Part shown: piece by piece, positions 40,806-44,776 of the stretch
How positions within the stretch are numbered: position 1 is the stretch's first letter
Layout: every line of letters begins with the position of its first letter
Assembly (NCBI GenBank): GCA_023132955.1
Contig: JAGLXK010000407.1
Coordinates: 1-44,776 of the forward strand
Reading direction: 5' to 3'
DNA length: 44,776 nt
From: Candidatus Heimdallarchaeota archaeon
GTDB taxonomy: Archaea; Asgardarchaeota; Heimdallarchaeia; Heimdallarchaeales; Heimdallarchaeaceae
Made by a program: the position numbers and the translations under genes
The notes under the pieces: generated by a model
Database searches by the model: none
Told to the model about the DNA's origin: nothing
What the model saw: the letters and a program-made list of their open reading frames with translations, nothing else

Positions 40806-41642
40806 ATGAAACCTGCAATCGTTATAGATAGTTCTTCTGAACTACCTCAGAAGCTTTATCCGAAGTATAATATCTTTCCTCTAGGTTATGTTATAAGAGA
40901 TTCTAACAATGAAACTCATAAAGAGCGAACACAGGTTCAAACATTACAAACAAGCAAGCTACTCTCAATAATTTCCAACGATAATAATGCACAGCTTTTT
41001 GCTCCCAGCATAAAGGATTTTGTAGAGCTTTATACTTTTCTCTCAGAAGAATTTGATTCTATTATCAGCATTCATTCTTCTTTTGCAACCCCTGCTGTAT
41101 TTGAGAACGCTTTGGTAGCAAAGAAACTTGTTTCTGAAATAAGTATTGATGTTATTGATACTCATACATTAGGTTCTTCTTCTGGTTTATTTGTTGAAGA
41201 ATTGTCAAAATTCATCGTAGAAGCTAAGAATATTAATGAAATCAGAAAGGAAACAATAAGTTTAGACAAACACATTAATTCCTTCATAATAACGAAGAAT
41301 GAACATTTAAACTTAACAGGTTTAAAGAAAATTGATTGGAGAAAGAGCTTAACTACATCGTTCAAAACATATAGTTTGTACAATTATTTCCAGACTAATT
41401 GGAACATTCTCTCTAACAGTCGAAACACAAACAAGCTTTTTTACAAAATACAAGAAAAATTGGCGGTTATTATTAAAACTAAAGATCTGAGAAATGTGTT
41501 TTACACATCCAGTAAGAATTTTTCAAAAGATACTAAATCCACTTTAAGCAAAATGAGGAAAATCCCTAAAACTGAAACAAAATCTTCTCTAGTTGCTTAT
41601 TATTTGTTAGGAGATAATTCATTTGATATCTCTTTCATTTAA
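40806..41642 (+). CDS. Divergent DegV family protein (copy 2)
   Basis: The N-terminal half resembles DegV: AIVIDSSSELPQKLYPKY matches the family start, FAPSIKDF the ligand-loop TSxPS..DF, IISIHSSFATPAVFENA the SS..SGTYQ. segment with SGT changed to ATP, and VIDTHTLGSSSGLFV the D(T/S)....G.G segment. The C-terminal half is much altered: the S(G)R motif and the usual G-rich ending are missing. It is 278 residues long. The lipid-contact serine region is changed, so binding may be lost or different. It follows the aIF1 operon and is convergent with tatD. Confidence 0.7.
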   Translation: MKPAIVIDSSSELPQKLYPKYNIFPLGYVIRDSNNETHKERTQVQTLQTSKLLSIISNDNNAQLFAPSIKDFVELYTFLSEEFDSIISIHSSFATPAVFENALVAKKLVSEISIDVIDTHTLGSSSGLFVEELSKFIVEAKNINEIRKETISLDKHINSFIITKNEHLNLTGLKKIDWRKSLTTSFKTYSLYNYFQTNWNILSNSRNTNKLFYKIQEKLAVIIKTKDLRNVFYTSSKNFSKDTKSTLSKMRKIPKTETKSSLVAYYLLGDNSFDISFI

Positions 41643-42465: not shown

Positions 42466-43443
42466 CTATAGTAGTTTTTCTTTGAATACCTGAAGCATAT
42501 CTAGTCCTCTAATTTCTCTATCTAATGCTTCAATTTCTGTAATGATTGTTTCTGGAAAAGCTGATTTGATATACTCGATATTCTTTAGGTGCTCTTTGTG
42601 TCTATGCATACAATAGGAGCAACCATCATTAGCTGGATTTATCTGATTTACTACTGCAAATTTATGTGAAATAAGATGTTGATCTAGTTCTTCAACGAGT
42701 CTTTCCGTTTCAAAAACACTCATCATTGTTGGAATTAGTACTTTAATGAATTGTGTTTGTTCTTCATCCATCAGCTTGTCTCTCGCAACCAAAACCTTCT
42801 CTTTCATAGTTTCAAGAGTTTCAACAGTTCTATCCTTCTCTTGACTTCCTCCAAACAAGGATTTCATCATTGTCATAGCGTTTGAAATGAAGGTTTTCAT
42901 TTTAAGCATTCTTCCTAAAAATGAATCAAGGAACTCAGGAATATTTAATAATCGTAAAGTGTGACCAGTTGGAGCTGTATCAAGGATTACTGTGTCGTAT
43001 ATCTCATCCTCTGCATATTCTAGAATTTTTGCGAAAGATAAGGCTTCATCCATACCTGGAGGAGGAATTGATTGTAAATCTTGACCCAAACCTTGTTGTA
43101 ATTCCCCCAAACCAGGAATAGCCGAAAATTGTGAGAATTGATCTGAATCAACAGGTTGTCCTATAGCCTTAGATATTTCCTCACCTGCTGCAGCAGGATT
43201 GATTTCAAGAGCAAATAGGTCACCAGCAACTCCTTTGACTTTAGTTATTTCACCCTTAGAAAAATCCATATCAAATGAATCAGAAACACTATGGGCAGGG
43301 TCAGTTGAGATAATTAAAACTCTTTTACCTAGTTCAGCCAAAGCTATTCCTAGTGCTGAGGCAACGCTTGTTTTTCCTACTCCTCCTTTTCCCCCAACTA
43401 AAATGTATTTTAGATCCATGCTAGTAATTTCTTTTAAGGACAT
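42466..43443 (-). CDS. Get3/ArsA family ATPase
   Basis: Get3 is the cytosolic ATPase that ferries tail-anchored membrane proteins to the membrane in eukaryotes; ArsA, its relative, drives arsenite export. From the ATG at 43443 the protein has 325 residues: P-loop GKGGVGKT at 18-25 (deviant Walker A), STDPAHSVSDSF (switch I), DTAPTGHTLRLL (switch II), and CSYCMHRHKEH with the zinc-binding CxxC that joins Get3 dimers and is absent from bacterial ArsA. A methionine-rich helical region (MLKMKTFISNAMTMMKS) could be the substrate groove. The TATA box places the mRNA start at this ATG. The TRAP-beta-like gene lies directly upstream. Single-domain ArsA without arsenic genes nearby favours Get3. Confidence 0.88.
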   Translation of the reverse strand: MSLKEITSMDLKYILVGGKGGVGKTSVASALGIALAELGKRVLIISTDPAHSVSDSFDMDFSKGEITKVKGVAGDLFALEINPAAAGEEISKAIGQPVDSDQFSQFSAIPGLGELQQGLGQDLQSIPPPGMDEALSFAKILEYAEDEIYDTVILDTAPTGHTLRLLNIPEFLDSFLGRMLKMKTFISNAMTMMKSLFGGSQEKDRTVETLETMKEKVLVARDKLMDEEQTQFIKVLIPTMMSVFETERLVEELDQHLISHKFAVVNQINPANDGCSYCMHRHKEHLKNIEYIKSAFPETIITEIEALDREIRGLDMLQVFKEKLL

Positions 43444-43511: not shown

Positions 43512-44288
43512 TTACCTTCTTTTCTTGGTTTTTCTTTTAATCTGCTTCTTACTTTTTTGAATAACGGTTCCTTTTTTATCCCTTTGTTTCTCCTTCCCTT
43601 TCTTAGCTTCTCGAGGTCTCTTAAAAACAAGATAATCAATTAAAACAAGAGCGCCTATTCCAAATACTATTGCTAATGAATAATACAAGATATTCAACCA
43701 GAGCTTTGCATCTAAAACTACAATATTCTCAGGTTTAATAGATGAAATGAAGAATCTCTGAGACTGTGCATTATATTTTTTTTCATCAATGCCGTAATAT
43801 TCAATAGTAGTTGGTTCTAAAGTAAAGTTTCCTTCAGAAAGAGGTTTGAAGTAATAGTAATAGTATATAGTTGCATTTGGTTCTACTATAACATACTTTT
43901 GGGTTGTTAAATTTAAACTAGAAATAGCCCAATCAGAAAAACTTGGATCAACTATTGTAAGATTATATGCAGTTTGATTACCAATGTTCTTAATAGTAAT
44001 ATTAACAAAAACCCATTCCTCGATATCTGGGTTGATTTCTGTATCGTTAACATCTTTAGCAAGATCAAGAATGGGCCTATCAAGGAAAGAATCATTGATT
44101 TGACTAAATGTTTGAAGAGTCTTGTCTATTGTTGTAGTCATATTGTTTTCCGAATTAATAGCTATTGCACTATTAATGGATGAGTGTGAAATAGTTAAGC
44201 CTAGAAATAGCATAATTGTAAGATATACTGTTGCGGGTCTAGAGATTCTTTTAATCATTGATTTCTTATTCCTTAATCTTCTAAACAT
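43512..44288 (-). CDS. TRAP-beta (SSR2)-like single-span membrane protein
   Basis: From the ATG at 44288 the 258-residue protein has a signal-type helix at about 19-38, an Ig-like domain at about 85-185, a membrane helix at about 197-222, and a very basic tail of 36 residues (KKSKKQIKRKTKKRR-like). The Ig-like part reads ITIKNIGNQTAYNLTIVDPS, then AISSLNL, IVEPNATIYYYYYFKPLSEG and FTLEPTTIEYYG. This follows, block by block, my recollection of eukaryotic TRAP beta ([55 protein letters not shown]). TRAP is the translocon-associated complex that assists secretion. The basic tail would face the cytosol. An ATG at 44258 is a possible start. It is 68 bases upstream of the Get3-like gene. A generic Ig-fold surface protein is the alternative. 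Confidence 0.55.
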   Translation of the reverse strand: MFRRLRNKKSMIKRISRPATVYLTIMLFLGLTISHSSINSAIAINSENNMTTTIDKTLQTFSQINDSFLDRPILDLAKDVNDTEINPDIEEWVFVNITIKNIGNQTAYNLTIVDPSFSDWAISSLNLTTQKYVIVEPNATIYYYYYFKPLSEGNFTLEPTTIEYYGIDEKKYNAQSQRFFISSIKPENIVVLDAKLWLNILYYSLAIVFGIGALVLIDYLVFKRPREAKKGKEKQRDKKGTVIQKSKKQIKRKTKKRR

Positions 44289-44400
44289 GCTTGAATCAGC
44301 CAATTTAAATATTTTGCTCTTCTGTATCTTTCTTTGTTCACATTCAGAAATTAATCTCTAATTATTCAAACCATTATTATTTGTTCATAAAAGTAGTAAA

Positions 44401-44433: not shown

Positions 44434-44776
44434 ATGACAGTTAAGATCATATGTGACACAAGCGCCGATTTAAACTTACAAAATGATGAAACACTATACG
44501 AGAAATATGACATTGAGTGGGTTCCAATGCAAGTTATGTTTGGAACAGAAGCATACAAGGAATTAGAAAATCTAAAAACATCAGAATTTTATGAAAAACT
44601 TTCTAAAACTGATGTTCATCCTACAACCTCTCAGTCTACTCAAGCAGATTTACTTGTAGCTTATGAGAAATTTGGAGACAAAGTTGATGAAATTATCTCT
44701 ATACACATCTCAGGAGAAATTAGTGGAGCTGTAGCCAGTGCTCGTATGGCTAAAAAAATGTATGAAAAACAGCATC
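44434..44776 (+). CDS. DegV family protein (copy 3), C-terminus cut by window edge
   Basis: The first 114 residues are visible. MTVKIICDTSADLNLQNDE, HPTTSQSTQADLL and ISIHISGEISGAVASARMA are the N-terminal, ligand-loop (TSQPS..) and SG..S(G)..Q(S)A segments of DegV/FakB. The order and spacing are normal. It is the third DegV in this window. The C-terminal domain is beyond the end. Confidence 0.85.
   Translation, partial: MTVKIICDTSADLNLQNDETLYEKYDIEWVPMQVMFGTEAYKELENLKTSEFYEKLSKTDVHPTTSQSTQADLLVAYEKFGDKVDEIISIHISGEISGAVASARMAKKMYEKQH

Follow-up and report, generated by a model that had tools for sequence, protein, structure and literature searches.

The mammalian TRAP complex contacts Sec61 through a cradle made up of the luminal Ig domains of TRAP-alpha, TRAP-beta and TRAP-delta, and its ribosome contacts and anchors are TRAP-alpha and TRAP-gamma (PMC10279528). 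TRAP subunits in Asgard archaea were the subject of a 2023 report (PMC10307638), and TRAP in strain MK-D1 was studied in 2024 (PMC11417166). In these two papers, Asgard TRAP subunits were found by distant-homology search as well as by sequence search, and the distant-homology work places three subunits broadly in Asgard archaea. The claim of an Asgard TRAP-beta family is not new. The main texts of the two papers contain no mention of Get3, and we found no literature report of a TRAP-beta/Get3 pairing in a search that covered few subscription papers and preprints and is thus weak evidence of novelty.

The window analyzed here is the whole stretch of 44,776 nucleotides, contig C343 of the 3.58-Mb, 673-contig genome of a heimdallarchaeal Asgard archaeon; loci nearly identical to it occur in deposited Candidatus Heimdallarchaeota MAGs. 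Genes for SecY and STT3 are present in this genome as well, together with one for ribophorin I that scores over its cut-off. The Pfam models of TRAP-alpha and TRAP-gamma gave no match over cut-off in 148 Asgard genomes, which, set against the subunits published from distant-homology work, indicates that these two models miss reported subunits. A TRAP-alpha-like match near Get3 in one genome of family f7 (G048) was taken as chance, since two other f7 genomes have M50 peptidase genes at the corresponding place beside Get3. Here and below, f1, f2 and so on are anonymous rank labels for families among the surveyed Asgard genomes.

The features of the locus are listed in Table 1. Counted from the ATG at 44288, the minus-strand open reading frame at 43512-44288 contains 258 codons. 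Two other in-frame starts exist, a TTG upstream at 44303 and the ATG at codon 11 (44258), and the latter is plausible as the true start. The hydropathy profile contains two hydrophobic stretches, at residues ~15-44 and, more strongly, at ~196-225, and hydropathy and alignment together predict a signal peptide, one Ig domain and one membrane helix near the C-terminus. This architecture agrees with an earlier note on this DNA, made from the sequence alone, which had described a signal-bearing single-span protein with an Ig-like domain followed by a membrane helix. A plausible signal-peptidase site is the A-x-A at residues 41-43, which six close relatives share without variation, and the predicted ectodomain contains nine N-x-S/T sequons. 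The basic tail that had also been pointed out after the helix is borne out by its composition, with 20 K/R and 3 D/E among 36 residues; in the alignment of short Asgard relatives, a tail of this length occurs only in f1, the family of the window. AF2 models, for which the input was limited to this protein and five of its close relatives, were of very low confidence, with a pLDDT of 36.8 for the full protein and 34.1 for the Ig domain.

Table 1 Features of the TRAP-beta-like gene and its Get3-type neighbor in the window
Feature	Position	Strand	Details	Basis
TRAP-beta-like gene	43512..44288	-	258 aa; start ATG 44288, ATG 44258 possible alternative	ORF and profile matches
Predicted signal peptide	44160..44288	-	residues 1-43; basic n-region, hydrophobic core, A-x-A 41-43	hydropathy and conservation
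Ig-like TRAP_beta domain	43719..44075	-	residues 72-190; Pfam match 93-190; N-x-S/T sequons	profile and alignment
Membrane helix	43623..43694	-	residues ~199-222; W197 just before	hydropathy and alignment with human TRAP-beta
Basic cytoplasmic tail	43515..43622	-	residues 223-258	composition and Asgard alignment
Get3/TRC40-type ATPase	42466..43443	-	P-loop GKGGVGKT and CxxC; directly downstream of TRAP-beta-like gene, same direction	

The TRAP-beta assignment was assessed with profiles in both directions. The Pfam model TRAP_beta (PF05753) matches the window protein with 42.4 bits (E=6.7e-11, cut-off 22.4) and is the only Pfam family to exceed its cut-off; the next family, BatD, reaches 18 bits and stays under its cut-off, and Ig families of the DUF11/BatD type score far lower than TRAP_beta. 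In a single-sequence phmmer search of the whole PDB, just two sequences fell below E=1, both mammalian TRAP-beta (0.7 and 0.98). These values alone are not significant, and it is the profiles rather than this score that indicate common ancestry. The phmmer alignment pairs query residues 97-166 with human TRAP-beta 44-114, and the blocks that the earlier note had pointed out do recur in the same order and spacing. Next, 32 short Asgard relatives were aligned (A2), and the resulting profile was compared with all PDB sequences. TRAP-beta chains came out on top (8bf9_B, 8b5l_v and 8b6l_F at 9e-10, 1.2e-9 and 1.4e-9), and the first match outside TRAP-beta, a bacterial grappling-hook protein, followed at 0.0023. 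All 32 relatives in A2 in turn match PF05753 at E<=0.01. A broader profile of 34 Asgard sequences, including Get3-linked members of f13, f19 and f4, aligned with residues 27-182 of human TRAP-beta at 50.1 bits, a range that covers the membrane helix and tail; the human sequence was confirmed to be identical to 8b6l_F, and the shuffle control for this profile reported 0 of 2000.

These results support the window gene as an Asgard homolog of TRAP-beta, a sequence resemblance that holds under formal tests. The outcome named beforehand as speaking against this assignment was a generic Ig or CARDB match with no TRAP-beta match, and the searches gave the opposite. The earlier note had gone on to suggest an archaeal ancestor of an ER translocon subunit. 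The homology contained in that suggestion stands on the profiles, while direct ancestry finds no support in the tree, where the position of human TRAP-beta among the Asgard proteins was not resolved and its branch is very long (2.92). The survey of Asgard genomes that had been proposed for the same architecture found the short form in 11 families (f1, f2, f4, f5, f13, f14, f16, f19, f20, f21 and f23) among the 148 genomes.

The neighbor of the TRAP-beta-like gene matches TIGR00345 with 262 bits (cut-off 135) and is the only gene of the Get3/TRC40 type in the host genome. Among proteins of solved structure, it is closest to algal ArsA1, to ArsA/Get3-type ATPases of archaea and to eukaryotic GET3/ASNA1, with bacterial ArsA farther away. 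Besides Get3, some Asgard genomes carry two divergent Get3/ArsA-like ATPases in tandem (L116:4461-6479, L117:4334-6375, L120:754-2891 and L122:4326-6345). In the window, 68 bp separate the TRAP-beta-like gene from the likely ATG of Get3 at 43443, and an A/T-rich promoter-like box precedes each of the two genes. Two DegV-family genes (40806-41642; 44434-44776, plus strand) flank the TRAP-beta/Get3/TatD group, and more DegV copies lie near the locus in sister genomes.

Of the 148 Asgard genomes, 46 contain a TRAP-beta-like match scoring 80 bits or more; 43 of these 46 also have Get3, and the two genes are adjacent in 37 of the 43 (counted by hand from tables). We take 37/43 as an estimate of linkage frequency, with the caveat that related genomes do not count as independent observations. 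By family, the adjacent pairs number 17 in f1, five in f2, two in f4, six in f5, one in f13, one in f16, four in f19 and one in f6. The f6 case (G082:C32) was not counted as an additional family, its protein being nearly identical to one from the window genus (L047 compared with L049, G100:C143), and the contig is probably misbinned. With f6 left out, the pair is linked in 7 of the 10 families that have both genes. The six genomes with both genes unlinked all belong to f20, f21 and f23, families in which the short TRAP-beta-like protein does occur, and Get3 neighborhoods sampled from further families contain no TRAP-beta-like gene. In f13 and f19, there are two short TRAP-beta-like proteins each, only one of which lies beside Get3 (L016, L021 and L037 compared with L097, L118 and L080).

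The surroundings of the pair were compared by BLASTP clustering of neighbors at 14 representative loci from seven families. These loci were picked because they are linked, so what the clustering shows is the lack of any further conserved neighbor, and it does not measure linkage frequency. Exactly two gene families, TRAP-beta and Get3, are present in all seven neighborhoods, and any other neighbor cluster spans at most two of the seven. In f4, a pilin-like gene lies next to the pair; it was rejected, as it is not common to all families. The pair is arranged in tandem or divergently depending on the family (divergently in f5), and in f2 the gap between the genes is as small as 1, 5 or 8 bp. This conserved pairing suggests a module for membrane-protein biogenesis that connects the translocon with Get3.

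The resemblance to TRAP-beta could also reflect a common Ig-type fold, with the window protein being a generic membrane-anchored archaeal surface protein of the DUF11, BatD or CARDB kind that has no translocon role. The weak secondary matches to BatD and DUF11 would fit such a protein, and the Pfam match taken by itself lacks full specificity: PF05753 exceeds its cut-off in 113 of the 148 Asgard genomes and, among 14 control genomes, in that of Methanosarcina acetivorans. Long multi-Ig Asgard proteins match it as well; they account for several of its best Asgard scores, some of them above the window protein and one at 63.8 bits. (A separate open frame of 567 residues, listed under L002:1501-1845, G000:C432:9349-9693, has no obvious signal peptide. 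Its PF05753 match is weak, at 23.5 bits, and falls in an Ig-like stretch with repeat-like and coiled-coil-like regions on either side; sister genomes have similar frames.) Against a generic Ig protein, TRAP-beta chains lead every other PDB sequence by ~20 bits with the A2 profile, and the match to human TRAP-beta runs through the helix and tail, beyond the Ig domain itself. The A2 profile also separates short signal-Ig-helix proteins (at least 80 bits) from long ones (at most 71 bits), a gap that partly reflects the choice of short proteins to build it. Together with the linkage to Get3, a gene of membrane-protein biogenesis, these observations make the generic reading quite unlikely.

Two further explanations concern Get3. 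The adjacency may be leftover ancestral gene order that carries no functional meaning, as might be expected from a linkage that is not universal and is missing from f20, f21, f23 and the sampled Get3 neighborhoods of other families. However, nearly all other neighbors have been shuffled away between families while the pair persists, even in f5, where its orientation has switched from tandem to divergent, and we regard leftover order as an unlikely account, if the least unlikely of these three alternatives. The protein may instead serve mainly as a dock for Get3, in which case the SecY channel would come second or not at all. In eukaryotes, Get2 and CAML recruit Get3 through a basic cytosolic segment, and the basic tail of the window protein may do the same. 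The adjacency kept in seven families, the nearly overlapping genes in f2 and the richness of the tail in K/R are all compatible with docking, but f2, f4 and f5 have short tails despite their linkage to Get3, and short basic tails are also expected from the positive-inside rule and are present in unlinked members. A dock of this kind seems very improbable.

We consider it most likely, at roughly 75%, that the window protein is an Asgard TRAP-beta homolog acting beside SecY/Sec61, with the Get3 pairing suggesting co-regulation or coupling. It would be a type I membrane protein with a signal peptide, its Ig-like domain outside the cytoplasm and its basic tail inside. Because of the homology to TRAP-beta, a position of this extracytoplasmic domain near SecY is the most likely one. 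We infer a chaperone-like role, in which the domain may help with the reception or folding of nascent chains as they exit the pore, similar to the luminal domains of eukaryotic TRAP. The tail could contact rRNA or Get3. In these archaea, co-translational and Get3-guided insertion of membrane proteins may be co-regulated or physically coupled. We note that the separate promoter-like box of each gene means that co-transcription is not implied in the window, which counts against this explanation. The same holds for the very low confidence of the AF2 models, the limited specificity of PF05753, the lack of TRAP-alpha and TRAP-gamma matches over the Pfam cut-offs and the unlinked Get3 genes of f20, f21 and f23.

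A bolder and rather doubtful extension is that, in these Asgard archaea as kin of the eukaryotic cell lineage, TRAP-beta and Get3 make up an ancient module of two genes, in which the TRAP-beta homolog couples Get3-guided insertion of membrane proteins to the SecY/OST translocon. If so, the separate TRAP and GET systems of eukaryotes would descend from a single connected unit of membrane-protein biogenesis. Apart from this extension, the reciprocal profiles and the coverage of the membrane helix provide independent confirmation that a eukaryotic ER translocon subunit has Asgard relatives, and the Get3 neighborhood across seven Asgard families offers a clue linking two insertion systems that are usually studied apart.

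Compared with known systems, the window protein is of the same family and from the same phylum as the Asgard TRAP-beta of the 2023 report (PMC10307638) and the MK-D1 study (PMC11417166). With eukaryotic TRAP-beta (SSR2, PF05753), the shared features are a signal peptide, a single Ig-like domain, a membrane helix and a short basic tail, the N-x-G...A and KPL-x-x-G-x-F blocks, and profile homology across most of the protein. Unlike its eukaryotic counterpart, the window protein is archaeal and expected in the plasma membrane, and its partners TRAP-alpha and TRAP-gamma go undetected by Pfam in Asgard archaea. Its neighbor resembles Get3/TRC40 (TIGR00345) in the P-loop and CxxC motifs, and delivery of tail-anchored cargo is its putative function. 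Relative to eukaryotic TRAP-beta, the window lineage further has an N-terminal spacer, ~25 residues long, ahead of the Ig domain, and it extends the tail to a 36-residue basic segment.
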